From a virus: DNA of 23,172 nucleotides. A program made the translations under genes and the position numbers. The notes under the pieces are model-generated. The model saw only the letters and a list, made by a program, of their open reading frames with translations. It did no database searches and was not told the DNA's origin. The DNA lies in IMG/VR virus record IMGVR_UViG_3300028829_002682, positions 1-23,172 of that record, one strand, 5' to 3'. This document shows positions 3,970-22,380 of this stretch, one piece after another (the stretch's first letter is position 1; each line of letters opens with the position of its first letter).

Positions 3970-4284
3970 ATGTTTGGAGAAATATTTGTTTTAGCCTTAA
4001 CAGGTTTTATCTTAAGATGCCTATTTGAAATGGGTATGAACTGGATACGAACAATATTAGGGTTTAGGAAAAAAGAGGATGAACTAAAGTTTACCGATTT
4101 ACTCTTAGGGGTAAAAGACTTGGGAACACAATTGCTAATGCTAGTTGCTATTATTGTGTGTTTTACCTACTTCGGGAAGAACCCTCTTAACCAAGACCCA
4201 TACTTTCTTCTTGGCTTGTTTTTACCAGAGGCTGGTAAAATGCTTGTATCTCTTATGAGAGATTCTAAACCGCAACCGAAATAG
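3970..4284 (+). CDS. Membrane protein, holin candidate
   Basis: A 104-residue protein with hydrophobic segments at about 4-20, 51-69 and 78-96, and charged residues clustered between them (FRKKEDELK) and at the C-terminus (RDSKPQPK). Shine-Dalgarno AGGAG (3959-3963). Its stop is 13 bases ahead of the SleB-type endolysin start. Size, segments and position fit a holin, which forms holes in the inner membrane so the endolysin can reach the wall. There is no sequence motif that proves it, as holins are diverse. Confidence 0.6.
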   Translation: MFGEIFVLALTGFILRCLFEMGMNWIRTILGFRKKEDELKFTDLLLGVKDLGTQLLMLVAIIVCFTYFGKNPLNQDPYFLLGLFLPEAGKMLVSLMRDSKPQPK

Positions 4285-4297
4285 GAGATGATTAGCA

Positions 4298-4735
4298 ATG
4301 CTTGAAGCAGCAATCGTATGTTTGGCCATGAACATTTATCACGAAGCTCGTGGTGAAGAGTTTGAAGGCCAAGTAGCAGTAGCCGAAGTTACTATGAATA
4401 GAGTAGCTTCGGAAAAGTTCCCCGATACCGTCTGTGATGTTGTCTGGCAGAAAAACCAGTTCTCATGGACGAACGATGGACGCTCCGATAAGACCCCTGA
4501 GACAGAGGCTTACAAGGAGGCCGTCTCTATAGCAACTGAGTTTGTTGATGGGGGTTCTAATCTAGAGGTCGGGCATGGTGCTCTCTGGTACCACACATCG
4601 GCAGTCTCGCCCTTCTGGGCTGACCACTATCGACTACTGGGTAATATCGGAAATCATTACTTTTATGATGACGGTAAAAACTATGCACCTGAAACTTCTC
4701 CTGTTCCAACTTTAAAACCTGAAAGGAATATGTGA
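4298..4735 (+). CDS. SleB-like cell wall hydrolase (endolysin)
   Basis: A 145-residue protein matching the Hydrolase_2/SleB family across almost its whole length: CLAMNIYHEARGEEFEGQ (8-25), AVAEVTMNRV, FPDTVCDVVWQ and QFSW. These are the conserved blocks of peptidoglycan-cleaving SleB/CwlJ-type enzymes; the Glu residues in HEARGE (16, 20) include the likely catalytic acid. There is no separate signal peptide, so export needs a holin, and the holin candidate is immediately upstream. It would degrade murein at the end of infection. The stop overlaps the next start (TGATG). Confidence 0.9.
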   Translation: MLEAAIVCLAMNIYHEARGEEFEGQVAVAEVTMNRVASEKFPDTVCDVVWQKNQFSWTNDGRSDKTPETEAYKEAVSIATEFVDGGSNLEVGHGALWYHTSAVSPFWADHYRLLGNIGNHYFYDDGKNYAPETSPVPTLKPERNM

Positions 4736-4965
4736 TGGGCGATCTTAAAGAATGCTTGAAAAAAGTTAAGTCCGAGTATGCTGTTGTTGGATTTGATGAC
4801 AAAGGTGACTTCGAACTACTTTACGAAGCCGACTTCTTGTCTAGCGCACAACAGTGGATGGATAGGTATACTCGCTGGGGTGACTTTGGCGGGTGGCATA
4901 GTATTGTAGCGGTAGACACTGACACGATTACTGCACAGTATTACATGCAACTTCACCCTCATTAA
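4735..4965 (+). CDS. Hypothetical acidic protein, 76 residues
   Basis: ATG at 4735 overlaps the endolysin stop by one base; GTG at 4732 is an alternative start. Shine-Dalgarno AAAGGA (4722-4727) fits 4735. The protein has a helical N-terminus, a short beta-like centre (YAVVGFDDKGDFELLY) and a Trp-rich segment (42-55). No family recognised. It is the last gene before promoter-like copy 4 and is co-expressed with lysis genes. Confidence 0.65.
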   Translation: MGDLKECLKKVKSEYAVVGFDDKGDFELLYEADFLSSAQQWMDRYTRWGDFGGWHSIVAVDTDTITAQYYMQLHPH

Positions 4966-5002
4966 ACTGAGAAAAACAACGCATCTATAGCGGTAAGATG
5001 AG
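4964..5002 (+). promoter_or_regulatory. Promoter-like repeat, copy 4 (divergent)
   Basis: Twenty of 22 positions match the core of copies 1-3 from TGAGAAAA to AACGCATCTATA (4968-4989). The bases after CTATA differ (GCGGTAAGATGA, against ATG plus GATAGAAA or GAGAAAG). Conservation that stops at CTATA is what is expected if transcription starts there. Confidence 0.65.
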
Positions 5003-5022
5003 AAGCAAGGAGAACATAGCTG

Positions 5023-5547
5023 ATGGCTACTATATACGACTTTAAAGACGGTAATGGCCCTGTTCCTGCTAAACAGCATCCTAACGGTGGTGGATGGGTG
5101 GCGGATACAGCTTATGTAGCGGAAACGGCTTGTGTAGGCCCTTACGCCAAGGTGTATGAGCACACTGTTGTGTATGGTAACGCTAGGGTGTTTGATAACG
5201 CTATGGTGTACGGTGACGCTTTGGTGTCTGGTTGCGCTTTGGTGTCTGGTGACGCTATGGTGTACGGTGACGCTATGGTGGACGGTGACGCTTTGGTGTT
5301 TGGTGACGCTAGGGTGTATGGTAACGCTCAGGTGTATGGTTACGCTTTGGTGTCTGGTGACGCTAGGGTGCATGGTAACACTAGGGTGTATGGTAACGCT
5401 AGGGTGTTTGATAACGCTGAGGTGTTTGATAACGCTATGGTGTATGGTAACACTAGGGTGTATGGTAACGCTGAGGTGTCTACGCTAGGGTGTATGGTAA
5501 CGCTCAGGTGTATGGTTACGCTTTGGTGTTTGGTCACACAACCTTAG
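5023..5547 (+). CDS. Hexapeptide-repeat left-handed beta-helix protein with frameshifted C-terminus
   Basis: After a ~45-residue N-terminal cap, residues 50-152 are 17 six-residue repeats of the type V-Y-G-N/D-A-x (VYGNAR, VFDNAM, VYGDAL and so on), the pattern of a left-handed beta-helix as in hexapeptide acyltransferases and related structural proteins. No catalytic His or acyltransferase loop is visible, so a structural or binding role is more likely. After S153 the repeats go out of frame: the unit at ~5476-5490 lacks four bases (GGTG), and a 21-residue Cys-rich tail ends at TAG 5545. In the frame -1 to it the repeats continue and end at TAA 5565-5567. Shine-Dalgarno AAGGAG precedes the start. 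Confidence 0.75.
   Translation: MATIYDFKDGNGPVPAKQHPNGGGWVADTAYVAETACVGPYAKVYEHTVVYGNARVFDNAMVYGDALVSGCALVSGDAMVYGDAMVDGDALVFGDARVYGNAQVYGYALVSGDARVHGNTRVYGNARVFDNAEVFDNAMVYGNTRVYGNAEVSTLGCMVTLRCMVTLWCLVTQP
5170..5533 (+). repeat. 18-nt tandem coding repeats of the hexapeptide gene
   Basis: About 20 units of 18 nt, most of the form GGTGACGCTNNGGTGTNN. Units differ at a few positions, giving the six-residue protein period. One unit near 5481 is 14 nt long. The repetitive sequence also creates long false reading frames on both strands. Confidence 0.85.
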
Positions 5548-5565
5548 ACCATGGAGAACATGAGT

Positions 5566-5597
5566 AATGACTAACACATACGATAGCGGTAAGATGA
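5566..5597 (+). promoter_or_regulatory. Degenerate promoter-like copy 5
   Basis: ATAGCGGTAAGATGA (5583-5597) is identical to 15 bases of copy 4 (4987-5001). The bases just before, AACACATACG, resemble AACGCATCT of copy 4 with one inserted base. The upstream TGAGAAAA block is absent, so activity is doubtful; it may be a decayed duplicate. Confidence 0.4.
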
Positions 5598-5608
5598 AAG
5601 GAATCTAA

Positions 5609-5821
5609 ATGATCGACTACAAGCTAGCTCAAGTCTACGACGAAGGCTTTGATGACGGCTTTGACCAAGGCTACAAAGAAGGTCTTGAAGCGGGTTATGA
5701 AGCCTCAAACGATAGCGTCTATGACCGAGGCTACATGGACGCAATTGATAAGTTTGAAGAAGCTTATCTCAAGGGTGACCTTGATGTCCCTACAACCATC
5801 AAACTAATGCGCTGTAACTAA
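5609..5821 (+). CDS. Small acidic GxxxG-repeat protein
   Basis: A 70-residue protein. Residues 13-29 have Gly at every fourth position (GFDDGFDQGYKEGLEAG), a GxxxG ladder like that in FliH/YscL-type helices, which promotes close helix-helix packing. The rest is acidic and helical. ATG directly follows a TAA, with AAAGGA at 5597-5602 as ribosome binding site. Likely a helical homodimer or partner of a host or phage protein. No family match recognised. Confidence 0.7.
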   Translation: MIDYKLAQVYDEGFDDGFDQGYKEGLEAGYEASNDSVYDRGYMDAIDKFEEAYLKGDLDVPTTIKLMRCN

Positions 5822-5842
5822 ACCCTAAAAGGAGCAAACAAC

Positions 5843-6046
5843 ATGGATACTAACAAAGTGGAACTCTCTGAAATGACCTTCACTAAACTGGTTGAAGCAA
5901 TCAACGACAAATGGTCTCACACATACATCGATGTTCCTGAAATGGAAGATCAGCCTGAGTATGATGTTGAGATGGAACGTGCTCTTGCTGAGATTGCTGA
6001 GCTGCAAGGCAAAGATCAGAACTACGACGACAACTATGAAGCGTGA
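5843..6046 (+). CDS. Hypothetical acidic protein, 67 residues
   Basis: Strong Shine-Dalgarno AAGGAG (5829-5834). Very acidic: at least 18 Asp/Glu against about six Lys/Arg, concentrated in the C-terminal half, which is predicted helical (DVEMERALAEIAEL). Small acidic early phage proteins often bind host enzymes or mimic DNA, but nothing here proves that. Followed by two hairpins and the helix-turn-helix gene. Confidence 0.7.
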   Translation: MDTNKVELSEMTFTKLVEAINDKWSHTYIDVPEMEDQPEYDVEMERALAEIAELQGKDQNYDDNYEA

Positions 6047-6056
6047 TAACTCTAAC

Positions 6057-6098
6057 TGCTCATCCGCGTGGTGAGCACTTTAGAGCGATCTTGCTCTA
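6057..6098 (+). other. Two tandem hairpins or palindromes upstream of the helix-turn-helix gene
   Basis: TGCTCA (6057-6062) pairs with TGAGCA (6072-6077); TAGAGC (6081-6086) pairs with GCTCTA (6093-6098). Both are perfect 6-bp inverted repeats in a 72-base gap with no T-run. They may be RNA processing hairpins, or operators for the DNA-binding protein encoded next. Confidence 0.5.
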
Positions 6099-6118
6099 TA
6101 ACCTCAATGGAGACTACT

Positions 6119-6367
6119 ATGACTAAATCTAACACTCGCGGCATGATCGATAACATCAGCAACGGCGCTAACTATGCTCTTAAGCACGGCTATCGCTATA
6201 CTACTCGTAACGGCGGCTGGAGCAATCTTGATCGTGTTGCAATTGCCACGGCAGTCGCTGAGGGCCGTTTGACTGTAACTCAGGCGGCTAACAAAATTGG
6301 TTGTTGCCGACTCTCTATCAAAAACTGGGTCAAAACACTTGACCAAAACAACCCACGCCTAGGCTAA
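6119..6367 (+). CDS. Small helix-turn-helix DNA-binding protein
   Basis: ATG at 6119 is chosen over the upstream GTG at 6068 because GGAG (6109-6112) fits it and the GTG lies in the hairpin region. The 82-residue product is basic. Residues ~40-73 (AIATAVAEGRLTVTQAANKI, then GCCRLSIKNWVKTL) fit a homeodomain-like helix-turn-helix as in transposase and repressor N-termini: LTVTQAANKIG is the turn and the following helix the reader. No other domain fits in the length. Likely a transcription regulator or DNA-packing factor. A strong terminator follows. Confidence 0.6.
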   Translation: MTKSNTRGMIDNISNGANYALKHGYRYTTRNGGWSNLDRVAIATAVAEGRLTVTQAANKIGCCRLSIKNWVKTLDQNNPRLG

Positions 6368-6399
6368 CACCCTACTGTTATTGTGTTCCTCCCTAACTT

Positions 6400-6455
6400 C
6401 CCTCTGGTGGCCCTTCGGGGTCACTGGAGGGCTTTTCCCCTTTCTATTTTTTTTT
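6400..6455 (+). terminator. Strong intrinsic terminator, 14-bp stem with UUCG loop
   Basis: CCCTCTGGTGGCCC, TTCG loop, GGGTCACTGGAGGG; all 14 positions pair with three G-U pairs. A T-rich tail including nine T in a row follows (to 6455). It separates the accessory genes from the DUF1127 and RNA polymerase genes. Confidence 0.92.
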
Positions 6456-6472
6456 CGACAAAGGATAACATC

Positions 6473-6673
6473 ATGTTTAACCCAATCCAAGAAACTAACA
6501 ACTGGATTTTTCGATTCTGGAACTTTGTAATCACTTGGCGTAAACATCGTAATACTATTAAATCCTTGAACCAGCTTACAGACGCGCAACTTCGAGATAT
6601 CGGTCTTGAGCGTCACGGTTTAGACGGGCTTATCTGGCACCCTGAAGACTTAAAGTCTCGCGGCACTAAATAA
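6473..6673 (+). CDS. DUF1127 family small Arg-rich protein
   Basis: ATG at 6473 has AAAGGA upstream; the longer frame from 6383 would run through the terminator. The 66-residue product has an aromatic amphipathic N-terminus (NNWIFRFWNFVITWRKHR) and the DUF1127 core L-x-Q-L-T-D-A-Q-L-R-D-I-G-L-E-R (residues 31-46). DUF1127 proteins are common in Alpha- and Gammaproteobacteria. The best studied, CcaF1 of Rhodobacter, binds RNA and affects RNA maturation and turnover. In this phage the gene precedes the RNA polymerase, so a role in host RNA metabolism is an attractive inference. Confidence 0.82.
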   Translation: MFNPIQETNNWIFRFWNFVITWRKHRNTIKSLNQLTDAQLRDIGLERHGLDGLIWHPEDLKSRGTK

Positions 6674-6674
6674 T

Positions 6675-6755
6675 ATGTTTTCACCAGCAGAAGCTTTACT
6701 CCTTTTATTTATGATCCTTATTACACTCTTTTATAAGGGCGGCGACGAAGAGTAA
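6675..6755 (+). CDS. 26-residue membrane peptide
   Basis: Reads MFSPAEALLLLFMILITLFY then KGGDEE. It is one hydrophobic helix of about 16 residues with a charged C-terminus. The ATG begins one base after the DUF1127 stop, so translation is probably coupled; there is no separate Shine-Dalgarno. Too short for usual gene finding. Its strong membrane-helix pattern and tight junction make it credible. Confidence 0.5.
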   Translation: MFSPAEALLLLFMILITLFYKGGDEE

Positions 6756-6780
6756 TATTCTGCTTGGTTATTCCAGTTTA

Positions 6781-6800
6781 ATAGGGTGCTTCGGCACTAT
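6781..6800 (+). other. UUCG hairpin in the leader of the RNA polymerase gene
   Basis: ATAGGGTGC, TTCG, GCACTAT: GTGC/GCAC plus ATA/TAT around a two-base bulge. No T-run follows, so it is not a normal terminator. It ends about 8 bases before the AAGGA ribosome binding site and may affect mRNA stability or translation of the polymerase. Confidence 0.45.
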
Positions 6801-6818
6801 GCCTATACAAGGAACAAG

Positions 6819-8972
6819 ATGAATACTATCAAACGACTCGTAGAAGATCTAAAATACCGACAAACTTTCCTAAACAAAAGGCATTCCGCTTATAACCTTG
6901 CTACAGCAGATCCTAAATTCTTAATTGAGTTTACCTATCCACACGTCCTAACCGGCTTGGAACGAAAAGCTACACTAACTGACATAATCGCTACTATGGG
7001 CGGTCGTTTACAACAAAAGCTAAAGCTTCCTAGAAACAGCATTGAAGCAGTTCAGTTTGGTTGGTATATTTTAATCTCTTACTTTGAGGAAGGCATACTG
7101 TCTTACTTCTGTAAAAGAATGAAAGGCAAAGGTAAGCATACAACTTATCAGCTAAAAGTTACAAACTGGGAAGCTATTCAGTCTCTGATCGAAGAAGTTG
7201 ATGATGAAGTAGCAGATATGTTTCCTAAGCTAAAACCCCTAGAGCCTTGGGTTGGCGAACTGCTGCACAAAGAAACAGGCAAGCCACTAATTCGCAATGC
7301 TCACCGTGATGCGGAAAAGGCGATAAAGACAACAGATCTGTCTTATCTAACAGACACTCTTAATAAGCTTAACAACACAGGATGGCGTATTAACAAATAC
7401 ATTCTAACAGTCTACAAACACTGTTTAACGAGTGTAGATAACCCTTTTAAGTTTGCTAAAGAAGTAGACAAGACAAAGCGTACATCGTTGTTAATGGAAA
7501 CAGAAGCAGTATTCCGACTAGCAACCAAGCATCAAGATAATGTGTTTTATCATCTGTATAACTGCGACTTTCGTGGTCGTATTTATCCCAATACTGCTTA
7601 TCTACACGAACAATCCTCTGACAATGCCAAAGGTCTTCTACTGCTAGACGAACCAACAATGCTTGGTAAAGACGGCTTCTACTGGTTGTGTGTTCATACT
7701 GCTAACATGTGGGGTAATGACAAAGTGTCTCTTGACGACCGAGCTAGGTTCGCTGAAGAGAACGCTAAAGAGTATATTGCTTACGCGGAAAACCCGTTAA
7801 CAAACATAGGATGGATGAAGGCAGATAAACCATTCTGCTTTCTTGCTTGTTGTCTTGAAATCAAGATGATTAAGGAATGGCGTGAAGATGGGTTGTCAAT
7901 GGAAGACTTCCCGTCTTCTCTGCCTATCTACATTGATGGCTCTAACAACGGTGTTCAGCACCTAACTGCAATGTCTAAAGACGAACAGGTTGCACCACTT
8001 GTAAACCTTGTTCCTCAAAAGCTACCCGGCGATGTGTATATGTTTATCGCTGATCATGCTATGACAGCAGTAGCTAAGTCATTATCTAACCTAGACAAAG
8101 ACACAATAGACTCCTTTGAGCCTTACTTTGAAAAGATCATCGCTCTCAAACGAGACTGTGAGCGTTGGCCTGAAGGTACAGAGAAATACAAGCTAGCTGT
8201 ATCTGCGTTAAAAGAGTTTAAGAATCATAACTATGACTTCAGCAAGAAGATCTGGCCCGTGTTCTGGTCTGCTATCACAGATAGGAAGATCTGGCGTAAG
8301 ACTGTTAAACGGCCTGTTATGACTCTTGGCTACGGCGGTACTCAGTTCGGTATGGGTGAGCAGATCAAAGACGACACCCGTAGTATCAACGAGTATCTGC
8401 GTGACAAAGAAGACATCTGGGCATACAAGTTGGGTCATTTGGTCTATGAAACCTGTTACAAGGAACTCAAGGGACCAGCTAAACTACTTCAGATGTTTGT
8501 TAAGTTGGCTGAACGACAGAATGAGAAAGAAGTTCCTATTTCTTACTCTGCACCTGTAACTAACTTCCCGTTTGTACACAAATACAGAAAGGCAAAATCT
8601 GAGCGCGCTGTGTTAAAGTATGGCGATGATAAAGTTAGAATTAGGTTACAAGTATGGGAGCAGTCAACGCTAGACCACAACAAGCAAAAGTCTGGTGCTG
8701 CCCCTAATATTGTTCATAGTCTTGATGCTGTTCATCTAACTATGACAGTCCATGACGCACACTATCCTGTTACTGTTGTACACGATTCTTTCGGATGTAC
8801 GGCAGGTAATATGGAGCATATGTTCAAACATGTTCGACAAAAGTTTGTTGAGCTGTATAAGCTACAACCACTAGAACATGTCTTATCACAGATGGACTCT
8901 CTAGACCTCATCCCAGCGAAAGGAACTCTTAACGTTCAAGAAGTCATACAATCTGACTTCGCCTTCGCTTAA
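6819..8972 (+). CDS. T7-like single-subunit DNA-directed RNA polymerase
   Basis: ATG at 6819 follows AAGGAA; a GTG at 6786 is an upstream alternative inside the leader hairpin. The 717-residue product has all core motifs. Motif A is IYIDGSNNGVQHLTAM with D373 (T7 D537); motif B is KRPVMTLGYGGTQFG with K497 and Y505 (T7 K631, Y639); PNIVHSLDAVHL precedes motif C, VVHDSFG, with D656 (T7 D812). It is about 165 residues shorter than T7 RNA polymerase (883), mostly in the N-terminal part. It would transcribe phage genes from its own promoters; the repeats at 2076, 2483, 2838 and 4968 are the candidates. Which promoter drives this gene is not visible. Confidence 0.96.
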   Translation: MNTIKRLVEDLKYRQTFLNKRHSAYNLATADPKFLIEFTYPHVLTGLERKATLTDIIATMGGRLQQKLKLPRNSIEAVQFGWYILISYFEEGILSYFCKRMKGKGKHTTYQLKVTNWEAIQSLIEEVDDEVADMFPKLKPLEPWVGELLHKETGKPLIRNAHRDAEKAIKTTDLSYLTDTLNKLNNTGWRINKYILTVYKHCLTSVDNPFKFAKEVDKTKRTSLLMETEAVFRLATKHQDNVFYHLYNCDFRGRIYPNTAYLHEQSSDNAKGLLLLDEPTMLGKDGFYWLCVHTANMWGNDKVSLDDRARFAEENAKEYIAYAENPLTNIGWMKADKPFCFLACCLEIKMIKEWREDGLSMEDFPSSLPIYIDGSNNGVQHLTAMSKDEQVAPLVNLVPQKLPGDVYMFIADHAMTAVAKSLSNLDKDTIDSFEPYFEKIIALKRDCERWPEGTEKYKLAVSALKEFKNHNYDFSKKIWPVFWSAITDRKIWRKTVKRPVMTLGYGGTQFGMGEQIKDDTRSINEYLRDKEDIWAYKLGHLVYETCYKELKGPAKLLQMFVKLAERQNEKEVPISYSAPVTNFPFVHKYRKAKSERAVLKYGDDKVRIRLQVWEQSTLDHNKQKSGAAPNIVHSLDAVHLTMTVHDAHYPVTVVHDSFGCTAGNMEHMFKHVRQKFVELYKLQPLEHVLSQMDSLDLIPAKGTLNVQEVIQSDFAFA

Positions 8973-9623: not shown

Positions 9624-10067
9624 ATGTCTAAAGAATATGTATATCTAGCAGGTCCAATGGAAGACTGCTCTGAATCGGTTATGACTGAATGGCGTACTCA
9701 TCTTGCTTCTGAGCTAATGTTGTGGGATATCGAATGTCTTGATCCTACACGACGAGTGTCATTTCACAATCAGTTGTATGATACAACTCTACAAGATGAT
9801 ATTCGTAACATGAACCTTTGTAAGCGTATCTTTAAGCAGGATATGCAGGACATTTCTAACAGCCGTGTTATTATTGCTGATGTTCGTCGTAAGTCAGGAC
9901 GAGGCACAGGGACTTCAATGGAACTAATGTTTGCTCACATGAAGAACAAAATCATTATCATGTGGGGTGATCATAACGATCACATTCATCCTTTCTATGA
10001 GTCTATCTACACTGAAAAGCACTACGACTTAAACGATGTTATTGAGGCGGTCAAGGAGTATTACTAA
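9624..10067 (+). CDS. Nucleoside 2-deoxyribosyltransferase-like protein
   Basis: A 147-residue protein. YVYLAGPM (5-12) is the first strand and nucleotide loop, D40-P is the mid motif, VIIADV (82-87) a buried strand, and GTGTSMELMFAH (94-105) carries the probable catalytic E100. This is the layout of the nucleoside deoxyribosyltransferase / nucleotide N-hydrolase (Rcl, MilB) superfamily, which breaks or swaps the N-glycosidic bond of deoxynucleosides or nucleotides. It fits base salvage, clearing of unwanted nucleotides, or making of a modified base. Shine-Dalgarno AAAGGAGAA. Stop overlaps the next start (TAATG). Substrate cannot be read from the sequence. Confidence 0.8.
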   Translation: MSKEYVYLAGPMEDCSESVMTEWRTHLASELMLWDIECLDPTRRVSFHNQLYDTTLQDDIRNMNLCKRIFKQDMQDISNSRVIIADVRRKSGRGTGTSMELMFAHMKNKIIIMWGDHNDHIHPFYESIYTEKHYDLNDVIEAVKEYY

Positions 10068-14555: not shown

Positions 14556-14816
14556 ATGTATACAGTTGAGTTTATCGAAGACTACTGTCAGGTTGTAACT
14601 CTTGATGATCATGGACAGCACACAGATGTAACGGTATTCATTGAAGATGCTGGTGTGTTTATTCAACAGTATCCTGATGGTGAACGCGAAAGTAAGCCGA
14701 ACTTAGTCTATATGTCTTTCCAACAGTTCAATGACATCTTAGATGCAATGAAGATGCCGGAAGGTATCTACAATCGAATCCGTATTAGCGCACGTAAAGA
14801 AGAGGAAGCAAAATGA
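14556..14816 (+). CDS. Hypothetical protein, 86 residues
   Basis: Starts two bases after the previous stop, with AAAGGAATG upstream, and ends in an ATGA overlap with the MazG-like gene. First two thirds are alternating hydrophobic strands (YTVEFIEDYCQVVTLDD, DVTVFIEDAGVFIQQY), last third is helical. No family recognised. Confidence 0.65.
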   Translation: MYTVEFIEDYCQVVTLDDHGQHTDVTVFIEDAGVFIQQYPDGERESKPNLVYMSFQQFNDILDAMKMPEGIYNRIRISARKEEEAK

Positions 14817-15112
14817 TTACTGTATTTGAATTTGAACTACTAGCCGAACGTTTCCTTAAGGAAGGAACTACTCAAGATACTTTGTTTGCAGGTCTTTCTT
14901 CTGAAGTTGGAGAGCTAATGGGTGAAAGAGTTGATGAGCTACGTGTAGACAAAGGGACTCCAGGTGATATTAACTATCGCATGGCTAGTGAGCTAGGGGA
15001 TATTCTATGGTACGTTGCTATGATTGCTCACAAGCGAGGTTATACACTTTCTCAGATTATGGACATGACTATCGACAAGCTTGATGACAGGGAGCGCAAT
15101 GGAAAAGCGTAA
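14813..15112 (+). CDS. MazG-like nucleotide pyrophosphohydrolase
   Basis: A 99-residue all-alpha protein with the metal-binding pattern of MazG-type enzymes: E31-V-G-E34 and E60-L-G-D63, followed by ILWYVAMIAHKRGYTL. MazG enzymes hydrolyse nucleoside triphosphates to monophosphate and pyrophosphate; in phages they are proposed to clean the nucleotide pool or alter the alarmone level of the host. Single-domain size is normal for phage forms. It precedes a dCMP deaminase-like gene, which supports dNTP housekeeping. Confidence 0.85.
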   Translation: MITVFEFELLAERFLKEGTTQDTLFAGLSSEVGELMGERVDELRVDKGTPGDINYRMASELGDILWYVAMIAHKRGYTLSQIMDMTIDKLDDRERNGKA

Positions 15113-19191: not shown

Positions 19192-21057
19192 ATGACACCA
19201 TATGAATCATTCATCCACTTGTCGCGCTACTCACGTTTTCTAGAGGCTGAAGGCCGTCGTGAAACATGGGCAGAGACTGTAGACCGTTTGATGAAATTTT
19301 GGGAATCACGTCTCGACAACGTAATCTCTCAGAGTGAATTTAACGAGATCGGTAACGCTGTTCATCGTCGAGAAGTCATGCCTTCAATGCGGGCCATGTG
19401 GTCTGCTGGAGACGCACTTCATCAAAATCATTTTAGAGGTTATAATTGTAGCTTTGTTGCAGTTGACCACATCCGAGTATTTGACGAAATCCTGTTTATC
19501 CTAATGGCAGGTACTGGTGTTGGCTTCTCTGCTGAAGCACAGTATGTCAACAAACTACCAATCATTAACGATACCTTCCAGCAGTCAGAGCGTACAATCG
19601 CTATCGAGGACTCTGCTGAAGGTTGGGCTAAAGCTCTACGTAAACTAGTTGCTGAACTATATCTTGGTAACGTCCACGACTGGGATTACTCTAAAATCCG
19701 TCCTGAAGGCGCTCGCCTTAAAACCATGGGTGGCCGCGCAAGTGGACCAGAACCACTTAAAGAGCTATTTGCCTTTGTCACAAACCTGTTCCGAAAAGCA
19801 GCGGGTCGCAAACTAACACCACAAGAAGTACACGACGTTGTTTGTAAGATTGCTGAGGTAGTGGTTGTCGGTGGTGTTCGTCGTTCTGCTCTTATCTCAC
19901 TCTCTGATATTGGTGACCCTGAGATCCGTGACTGTAAGTCAGGTCGTTGGTGGGAAACAGCCCCCCATCGTGCTCTTGCTAACAACTCTGGTGCTCATGA
20001 CTCTAAGCCTTCTATGTTTGTATTCATGGACGAATGGGTTGCTCTTATGAAGTCAGGCTCTGGTGAACGTGGTATATACAACCGTGGCGGGGCGCGTAGA
20101 ATGGCTCCTGAACGCCGCGTAGGTTATTTAATTAATGGCTGTAACCCTTGTGCTGAAATTCAGCTACGGTCAGGACAGCTATGTAACCTTACAGAAGTTG
20201 TATGTCGTGCAGACGACACCGAAGAAACACTAATGGCGAAGCTCAGGTATGCCGTCATCCTTGGCACATTCCAAGCCTCTCTAACCGAATTCAAATACGT
20301 ACGTAAAGTATGGCAGAAGAACTGTGAAGATGAGCGCCTACTCGGTGTTTCACTAACAGGTATTCAAGACTGCAAACTCTTACAGAACCCTGATCCTAAA
20401 CTGCTAGAACGGATGCGAGACTATGCCTACGAAATCAATGTTGAATACTCAAAGCTTATCGGTATCAACCCTGCTACAGCTATCACTACGGTTAAGCCTA
20501 GCGGTACTGTCAGCCAGCTTGTTGACTCTGCTAGCGGGATTCATGGTCGTTTTGCCCCTTATTATATCCGGGCGGTTCGGCAGTCTAACAATGACCCACT
20601 TACTACCTTTCTAAAGGACGAAGGCGTTCCTAACGAACCCGACGAAATGAACCCTGCTCGTACAACTGTCTTCTACTTCCCTATTAAGTCACCACAGGGT
20701 GCTATTATGGCGAACGAACAGACAGCTATTGAGCAGCTAGAGAACTGGAAACTCTTCCAGAAACATTGGTCTGAACACTCTGTGTCTGTTACTGTTTATG
20801 TTAAAGAACATGAATGGATGGAAGTAGGTGCTTGGGTCTATGCTAACTTTGATTACATCACTGGTATCTCTTTCCTGCCTTACTCTGATCATACTTATGC
20901 TCAGGCTCCATACACTCCTTGCACAGAGGAAGAATATGAAGCGGCACTAGCAAAGATGCCTAACGTTAACTTTGATCGGCTTTCTGAGTACGAAGTCGAA
21001 GATACAACAGAAGGCGCACAAACCCTAGCATGTAGTGCAGGTGGTTGCGAAATCTAA
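19192..21057 (+). CDS. nrdJ: Class II (adenosylcobalamin-dependent) ribonucleotide reductase, monomeric type
   Basis: A 621-residue reductase close to the monomeric Lactobacillus RTPR type (739). Redox Cys pair C86 (YNCSF) and C331 (CNLTE); thiyl radical Cys C320 in NPCAEIQL with E322 and N318; AGTGVGFSAEA near 103-113; PSGTVSQLVDSASGIHGRFA as the phosphate-binding region; C-terminal reducing pair C614-S-A-G-G-C619. No separate small radical subunit is visible, as expected for a B12 enzyme. It makes deoxyribonucleotides for phage DNA and needs host cobalamin, with glutaredoxin at 22114 a likely reductant. Confidence 0.93.
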   Translation: MTPYESFIHLSRYSRFLEAEGRRETWAETVDRLMKFWESRLDNVISQSEFNEIGNAVHRREVMPSMRAMWSAGDALHQNHFRGYNCSFVAVDHIRVFDEILFILMAGTGVGFSAEAQYVNKLPIINDTFQQSERTIAIEDSAEGWAKALRKLVAELYLGNVHDWDYSKIRPEGARLKTMGGRASGPEPLKELFAFVTNLFRKAAGRKLTPQEVHDVVCKIAEVVVVGGVRRSALISLSDIGDPEIRDCKSGRWWETAPHRALANNSGAHDSKPSMFVFMDEWVALMKSGSGERGIYNRGGARRMAPERRVGYLINGCNPCAEIQLRSGQLCNLTEVVCRADDTEETLMAKLRYAVILGTFQASLTEFKYVRKVWQKNCEDERLLGVSLTGIQDCKLLQNPDPKLLERMRDYAYEINVEYSKLIGINPATAITTVKPSGTVSQLVDSASGIHGRFAPYYIRAVRQSNNDPLTTFLKDEGVPNEPDEMNPARTTVFYFPIKSPQGAIMANEQTAIEQLENWKLFQKHWSEHSVSVTVYVKEHEWMEVGAWVYANFDYITGISFLPYSDHTYAQAPYTPCTEEEYEAALAKMPNVNFDRLSEYEVEDTTEGAQTLACSAGGCEI

Positions 21058-21784: not shown

Positions 21785-22133
21785 AGATTCTGAAAGTGTC
21801 TCGAACACGCGGTTAGTGGCCGCTATTATACATAAAGGTAAGGTGGTGTCTTATGGTAAGAACCAATACAAGACCCACCCTACTATGATTAAGTTTTCCA
21901 AGAACCCTCATGCTATATTCCTTCATGCTGAAGTTGATGCCATTAACAAGGCTAAGAAGGTTCTTGGAGAAGACTTATCTAAGACTAAACTAATTGTAAT
22001 GAGAATCCTGAAAGACGGAACCTATGCTAATGCTAAACCCTGTTGTGGTTGTAGTAAGTGCATAGAACATTACGGTATTACAAACGTTATATACACAACC
22101 GGAGAAACAACAAATGTACTTGGTAATTGGTAA
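21768..22133 (+). CDS. Cytidine/dCMP deaminase-fold protein 2
   Basis: 121 residues from ATG 21768 (the frame is open back to 21729, but that part only mirrors the acidic tail of the previous gene). Zinc motifs H53-A-E55 and P91-C92-C-G-C95, with C98 also near, fit the deaminase superfamily; LVAAIIHKGKVVSYGKNQ is the usual first hairpin. It differs strongly from the deaminase at 15099. The motif FLHAEVDAINKA and PCCGC spacing recall deaminases acting on free nucleosides or nucleotides, possibly tRNA-type. Two in one phage suggests distinct substrates. Confidence 0.75.
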   Translation: MKKKAEDSESVSNTRLVAAIIHKGKVVSYGKNQYKTHPTMIKFSKNPHAIFLHAEVDAINKAKKVLGEDLSKTKLIVMRILKDGTYANAKPCCGCSKCIEHYGITNVIYTTGETTNVLGNW

Positions 22134-22380
22134 GGACAACTGTCCCTTCTGTGATCGCACTAAAGACATGCTTGAAGGGAACAACCTCCCAATGATTTAC
22201 ATCAACATTAATAATGAAGAACCAGAGGTTCAGAGCTTCCTCAAAGGTCTTATTAAAGAGGAACTTACAGAAACTACTGTACCGCAGATCTTTACGTACA
22301 TCGGCGGGGCAGAAGAGCTAGAATATCTGCTTAAGATTTCTAACAAGATCGTTGATCAGGGTGGTTTTAACAATGACTGA
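22114..22380 (+). CDS. Glutaredoxin
   Basis: An 88-residue protein with active site C10-P-F-C13 near the N-terminus after a first strand (YLVIGKDN), and T-V-P-Q-I-F, the cis-Pro loop of thioredoxin-fold proteins. GGFNND end. It would supply electrons to the class II RNR encoded upstream. Phage glutaredoxins next to RNR genes are common. GGAG Shine-Dalgarno at 22101-22104; start overlaps the previous gene by 20 bases. Confidence 0.9.
   Translation: MYLVIGKDNCPFCDRTKDMLEGNNLPMIYININNEEPEVQSFLKGLIKEELTETTVPQIFTYIGGAEELEYLLKISNKIVDQGGFNND

Follow-up and report, generated by a model that had tools for sequence, protein, structure and literature searches.

Phage-encoded RNA polymerases (RNAP) are usually seen as controlled by promoters and by the order of infection. 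The described systems that most resemble the leader reported here are bacterial. In Rhodobacter capsulatus, the cutF/stem-loop/cutO arrangement switches via cotranslational export, with a small hydrophobic membrane-targeted upstream ORF and an intergenic stem-loop that hides the Shine-Dalgarno (SD) sequence of the next gene, but CutF is longer than the phage peptide, senses copper and carries a stalling motif (PMC9973294). The hosts known for the nearest phage isolates come from the bacterial order to which Rhodobacter belongs. In Salmonella, mgtQ promotes the translation of mgtB: here too, the ribosome-binding site of a downstream gene is freed when a short intergenic ORF is translated and the peptide has acidic residues, even though the target is a bacterial magnesium gene, no membrane helix is described and the structure is unrelated (PMC8092293).

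DUF1127 proteins, for their part, have been studied in several bacteria. CcaF1 of R. sphaeroides binds RNA and affects RNA turnover (PMC12501420), the sensor kinase PhoR is bound by the SDPs of Agrobacterium and by YjiS of E. coli, and YjiS of Salmonella is membrane-associated and binds inner-membrane proteins, no RNA having been found with it (PMC12501420, PMC11707872). The phage group considered below shares with these proteins the conserved core L..L.D..L.DIGL.R and an amphipathic N-terminal helix, as proposed for YjiS, but differs by the aromatic character of this helix, by a C-terminal stretch (IDRLVWL-EDK--RG) and by its location in a phage nucleotide module. In Sinorhizobium, the gene duf1127_1 also lies behind a terminator-type leader control, but the attenuator is Rho-dependent and driven by a uORF (PMC12218461), whereas the phage has a hairpin of intrinsic type followed by a T run. 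No report of a phage DUF1127 protein was found in the literature searched.

The stretch analysed here (hereafter the window) is the whole 23,172-nt contig of the IMG/VR virus record IMGVR_UViG_3300028829_002682. Among isolates of the Naomviridae, DSS3_VP1 and DSS3_PM1 have RNAPs that share 50% identity with that of the window, a likeness that refers to the RNAP comparison alone; these phages also have a hairpin and a T run before the RNAP, but neither mini-ORF nor RNA element nor DUF1127 there. Compared to cutF/cutO, the phage leader is devoid of a copper motif and of any evident stalling motif, is made of four short helices and two bulges, and precedes a phage RNA polymerase. Two features of leader-ORF switches were nevertheless found in it: a conserved short ORF located at the structure and a downstream SD paired within a conserved structure. 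We consider that the region is probably a control leader of the RNAP, i.e., a translational switch opened by the translation of a membrane mini-ORF, and that a DUF1127 gene was inserted into this leader.

Gene order around the RNA polymerase

In the window, the order is terminator, DUF1127, membrane mini-ORF, RNA element and RNAP. The relevant features are:

6119..6367, + strand: small helix-turn-helix (HTH) protein, last gene before the terminator (weak HTH_28 match, below the cut-off; synteny in the relatives L091 and L092)
6374..6390, + strand: ACTGTTATTGTGTTCCT, same as the 5' arm (P1-bulge-P2) of the L092 RNAP leader
6400..6455, + strand: terminator-like hairpin and T9 (fold z-score -3.0; equivalents in the relatives)
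6473..6673, + strand: DUF1127 protein, 66 aa, apparently relocated (PF06568; absent from this place in L091/L092)
6675..6755, + strand: mini-ORF with a single membrane helix, 26 aa (ORF list, relatives, shuffles)
6763..6818, + strand: covarying RNA element of the RNAP leader (minimum-energy fold, model match, covariation)
6819..8972, + strand: single-subunit phage RNA polymerase (PF00940; ATG directly 3' of P1)
14813..15112, + strand: MazG, which in other roseophages is commonly the neighbour of DUF1127 on the upstream side (PF03819)
19192..21057, + strand: class II ribonucleotide reductase (RNR), usual neighbour of phage DUF1127 (PF21995, PF02867)
22114..22380, + strand: glutaredoxin, end of the RNR–glutaredoxin stretch where relatives carry DUF1127 (PF00462; synteny)

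The RNAP (RNA_pol match in Pfam, E 3e-79) starts at the ATG in 6819, 63 nt past the stop of the peptide, and is up to 68–69% identical to proteins from uncultivated viral contigs. Its closest relatives, L091 and L092 (RNAP identity 68% and 65%, respectively), have in common the order cell-wall hydrolase, small ORF, HTH ORF, terminator, mini-ORF and RNAP, without DUF1127 at this place. Elsewhere in the window, positions 5023–5547 encode a YdcK-type beta-solenoid repeat protein (PF18836), whose repeats leave long open frames in other frames and on the other strand, while a nucleoside 2-deoxyribosyltransferase-like gene lies downstream of the RNAP (9624–10067); along with mazG, dCMP deaminase, RNR and glutaredoxin, the latter makes up the nucleotide-metabolism set of the window.

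The first-pass annotation had pointed to a strong terminator upstream of DUF1127 and to the lack of an evident promoter behind it, and we reached the same view on both counts. The terminator has a 14-bp stem (6400–6413/6418–6431), a TTCG loop and a T9 at 6447–6455, and in 39/39 non-redundant relatives the first cistron likewise comes after a hairpin and a T run, whether or not DUF1127 follows. Two T stretches come after the hairpin in the window (6432–6455) and in these 39 relatives, a short one at the stem and one of T8–14 about 11–15 nt further on; this second run is conserved and sits just before the first start codon. A sigma-70-like promoter between the terminator and the RNAP was considered and rejected, the one weak match of the region lying upstream of the terminator and such matches being fewer than in shuffled sequences. 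Since the strong hairpin and T run are so constant before the first cistron, either read-through or an unrecognised promoter would feed the RNAP.

RNA element upstream of the polymerase

Our follow-up of the region 6473–6755 revealed an additional feature, missed in the first-pass annotation, in the 60–75 nt that separate the stop codon of the mini-ORF from the start codon of the RNAP. This element is composed of a helix P1 (in the window, 6763–6766/6815–6818, CUUG/CAAG), a 4-nt 5' bulge (6767–6770, GUUA), a helix P2 (6771–6774/6811–6814, UUCC/GGAA) in which the RNAP SD is paired with an anti-SD, a linker, a helix P3 (6781–6785/6802–6806, AUAGG/CCUAU), a 4-nt 3' bulge (6798–6801, UAUG), a helix P4 (6786–6789/6794–6797, GUGC/GCAC) and a loop (6790–6793, UUCG). 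The window leader takes the P1–P4 fold by energy alone (minimum-energy fold); by itself, its folding energy is unremarkable (z -0.88).

In a plain MAFFT alignment of 35 leaders, which was not fitted to the structure, 18 of the 19 pairs vary on both sides, with a covariation of 0.575 against at most 0.20 for slid pairings. With a covariance-model alignment of 43 distinct rows, which leans towards the structure, all 19 pairs do so, and the covariation amounts to 0.657 (slid pairings: at most 0.164). At the sequence level, these alignments demonstrate a covarying P1–P4 structure in the RNAP leader. In the latter alignment, P3/P4 are paired in 99% of cases and P1/P2 in 79–82%, and all of the sequences (43/43) have a G as the last of the four bases in the 3' bulge; across the leaders, the 5' bulge is mostly AAAG/ANNG-like. 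The two 4-nt bulges lie on opposite strands and are often both NNNG followed by a pyrimidine-C helix, like one recognition site present twice.

Searches with a model of the element returned 59 matches in 663 kb, one per locus and each just before the RNAP. Over whole contigs, one clear match was obtained in 35/50 and otherwise nothing above noise, the only credible match of the window being at 6746–6825 (37 bits). A genome-wide repeated signal or a phage promoter was rejected on account of this single copy per contig and of the covariation, which is not that of a fixed sequence. None of the Rfam 15 families reached its gathering threshold in the window, nor was there any credible Rfam match in the L122 or L099 leaders; identity with a known RNA family was also discarded for the weak matches obtained (anti-hemB, mir-126), which are far below thresholds. 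The model had no match in a small sample comprising a single Leisingera genome, the records of nine named phages and a further six viral contigs; Cobavirinae, CRP-7, Kolga and the DSS3 phages are among the phages without a match, and the relatives bearing the element are metagenomic contigs throughout, many of them partial. As judged from its alignments and distribution, the element is a predicted structured RNA that is absent from Rfam and common to dozens of related marine viruses.

Membrane mini-ORF

The peptide encoded at 6675–6755, MFSPAEALLLLFMILITLFYKGGDEE, consists of one hydrophobic helix and ends in acidic residues. Its ORF starts one base past the DUF1127 stop, ends just 5' of P1 and has no SD of its own. 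That such a peptide exists, as initially proposed, is well supported: among the 40 non-redundant RNAP-family loci that bear the RNA element, 35 have a mini-ORF of about 16–30 hydrophobic residues adjoining the foot of the element; dinucleotide-shuffled sequences give 2.0 +/- 1.4 such cases (maximum 7) and random genomic sites 1.3. Moreover, in comparisons of close pairs, codon positions 1/2/3 carry 27/11/56 differences, which indicates that the mini-ORF is translated and constrained, purifying selection keeping the hydrophobic second positions. The end of the peptide is alike in L092 (YKEGASQQDEE vs. YKGGDEE in the window). Over the whole set, only the hydrophobicity and often an acidic end are conserved, hence no stalling motif is evident; likewise, neither a CutF-type copper motif CxxxC nor a C-terminal proline-rich stalling motif is present in the peptide of the window or in the mini-ORF products compiled here.

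The position of the mini-ORF stop, from -8 to +12 nt of P1, is kept in nearly all relatives, including very diverged ones, so that a terminating ribosome would touch P1. As in the two DSS3 phages, L140 has neither mini-ORF nor RNA element, and in other loci without the element (L148–L151, L153, L103, L119 and L124), a membrane ORF runs up to or into the RNAP start. A second, more distant RNAP branch (L148–L151, L153–L156, L162, L164, L168 and L169) has no RNA element either; there, a single-membrane ORF of 32–60 aa ends directly at, or overlaps with, the start codon of the RNAP (e.g., TAAATG).

The peptide had been proposed to be the membrane partner of DUF1127, which would make the two products a membrane-tethered RNA-binding pair controlling early RNA decay. 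The one-base junction, the aromatic and amphipathic N-terminal helix predicted for DUF1127 and the RNA binding and RNA turnover effect of CcaF1 (PMC12501420) would fit such a pair. However, the peptide or its equivalent precedes the RNAP in nearly all relatives without DUF1127 there (L091 and L092 included), DUF1127 occurs without the peptide in RNR cassettes, and other DUF1127 proteins bind PhoR or other inner-membrane proteins rather than RNA. With relatives having either one alone, we reject a functional unit of DUF1127 and peptide, and regard the paired role in RNA decay as very improbable. The distribution of the ORFs indicates that the mini-peptide belongs with the RNAP gene, not with DUF1127.

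Proposed control of polymerase synthesis

In the switch that we favour, P2 (the anti-SD:SD pairing) and P1 would hide the ribosome-binding site of the RNAP, while the bulged hairpin P3–P4 would clamp P1/P2 shut. A ribosome on the hydrophobic mini-ORF would then reach the stop codon at the foot of P1 and, upon termination, open P1/P2, which would allow the RNAP to be translated and thereby tie its synthesis to the translation, and perhaps to the membrane insertion, of the mini-peptide. As arranged in the window, DUF1127 separates the terminator and ribosome-binding site from the mini-ORF, so that the latter probably depends on ribosomes finishing DUF1127; because the mini-ORF lacks an SD of its own, its translation, and then that of the RNAP, may depend on the translation of DUF1127. 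In a folding model of 35 loci, parking a ribosome at the mini-ORF stop raised the mean SD exposure from 0.26 to 0.42 (Wilcoxon p 0.0014), whereas blocking a stretch of the RNAP coding sequence led to no rise. In the window itself, exposure was not raised (0.42 to 0.33), since the ribosome footprint reaches P1 only.

The best-kept parts of the element are P3/P4 and the invariant bulge G, while P1/P2 are less kept, hence selection could be acting on a hairpin bound by a protein instead of on a lock opened by ribosomes. Accordingly, the bulged hairpin might be an operator at which an RNA-binding protein (e.g., the RNAP itself or a different one encoded by the phage) would repress RNAP translation, with the mini-ORF specifying an independent small membrane protein that is simply co-transcribed; the frequent NNNG form of the 5' bulge is what two binding sites would be expected to look like. 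We hold this to be rather unlikely, as the mini-ORF stop is set against P1 across very diverged relatives and as a membrane ORF in contact with the start of the RNAP is retained in lineages that lack the element, both of which favour translational coupling. An operator and a translational switch are compatible with each other, and, with P3/P4 and the bulge G so highly conserved, there may be room for a binding protein.

A third possibility is that the element serves as an RNA processing or stability site forming the 5' end of the RNAP mRNA, in the manner of T7, in which RNase III sites lie between early genes. Its occurrence as a single site before the polymerase gene and the asymmetric bulge within its hairpin are in line with such a role, which we nonetheless deem improbable: helices of 4–6 bp are short for RNase III, and the SD pairing has no part in processing, even though P1/P2 covary. 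The translational switch, probably opened by the mini-ORF, is the reading that we retain.

Relocation of the DUF1127 gene

The DUF1127 identity given to the ORF 6473–6673 was confirmed (Pfam PF06568, 35.7 bits for a cut-off of 23.3, E 7e-9), and the gene is present in a single copy within the window contig. Its description as Arg-rich suits the other phage copies (14%) better than that of the window, in which only 6 of 66 residues (9%) are Arg. The AlphaFold model is mostly helical, with one long helix (4–34; pLDDT 80, pTM 0.54), and is uninformative regarding a partner.

A search for DUF1127 in related phages, which had been suggested as a check, recovered relatives encoded by at least 233 viral contigs, gathered with alignment-based queries. 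In a sample of 87 loci, which corresponds to the 80 best matches to cobavirus-like queries and so favours the mazG/RNR arrangement, mazG lies at most two genes upstream and class II RNR at most two genes downstream of DUF1127 in 62 loci, whereas RNR, mazG or glutaredoxin is found within six genes in 84. DUF1127 is beside the RNR module in the isolates SIO1, P12053L, ICBM1, CRP-4 and CRP-6 and in the autographivirus CRP-118, always as a “hypothetical” or unannotated gene in these records (L002–L007). The order there is mazG–DUF1127–RNR with overlapping starts and stops, CRP-6 having an extra gene before RNR; in CRP-118 (L004), RNR is annotated in two pieces (4186–5157 and 5558–6259) with a 400-nt gap, as if interrupted.

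Within the RNAP family of the window, DUF1127 occurs in 10/50 contigs. In seven of these ten (including the contig of L092), it is located between RNR and glutaredoxin or beside glutaredoxin, and a DUF1127 gene immediately ahead of the mini-ORF is peculiar to the window. Consequently, DUF1127 is rejected as an RNAP-linked gene, and its proposed tie to the RNAP and to early RNA decay is not supported, given its usual slot between RNR and glutaredoxin and the 84 loci mentioned above. A CRP-7-type DUF1127 lies about 0.8 kb upstream in L136 (2766–2957) and L144 (125–316); this distinct subtype, which has neither the EDK tail nor an aromatic helix at its N-terminus, was noted in L136, L144, L181 and L008 (932–1120), which comprise CRP-7 and a few RNAP-family contigs.

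The window retains mazG, RNR and glutaredoxin, with DUF1127 sitting in the RNAP leader instead. From these gene orders, it appears that DUF1127 moved from the nucleotide-making module into the leader and is a recent arrival there. A trace of this move may be seen in positions 6374–6390, a 17-nt identity to the P1–P2 arm of the L092 RNAP leader, for which the only exact match among 228 loci is L092 2644–2660. In the fold, TGTTAT (6376–6381) can pair with ATAACA (6465–6470) at the DUF1127 ribosome-binding site. A recent host origin of phage DUF1127 was also considered and set aside, the best bacterial matches being weak (E 9e-8) and without the phage C-terminus.

Possible function of phage DUF1127

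The statement that DUF1127 proteins bind RNA where studied holds for CcaF1 but not for the SDPs and E. coli YjiS, which bind PhoR, nor for Salmonella YjiS, with which no RNA was found. Considering the usual place of the gene beside RNR and the binding of bacterial DUF1127 to PhoR, the phage protein most likely serves nucleotide or phosphate supply. More specifically, it could act on host phosphate signalling by binding PhoR like the bacterial SDPs, so as to shift phosphate uptake and feed the RNR/MazG module, a scenario that we put forward tentatively and with some doubt. It is in agreement with the proximity to RNR, mazG or glutaredoxin in the above best-match sample, with the presence of phoH in the same gene run as DUF1127 in Cobavirinae and with the fact that bacterial DUF1127 proteins of several species complement the PhoR phenotype (PMC12501420). 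On the other hand, the phage C-terminal stretch is absent from the bacterial copies recovered. A role in RNA turnover would deserve less weight than one of the PhoR type.

Significance

Through the DUF1127 genes beside RNR in well-known roseophages (e.g., SIO1), the targeting of PhoR or of RNA turnover in the host by phages becomes open to testing. As for the RNA motif, it is small and occurs once per genome, and it provides a cheap marker for a marine phage group to which none of the isolates in the searched phage collection is close. It is conceivable, albeit unlikely in our opinion, that this large uncultivated group gates RNAP synthesis by a membrane-coupled switch, the RNA opening only upon translation and insertion of the peptide. 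If true, the polymerase would be made at the right time or place, for example at the membrane where the phage DNA enters. More generally, a covarying element hiding the ribosome-binding site of the polymerase, with a mini-ORF at its foot, would be a new control point in phage takeover.
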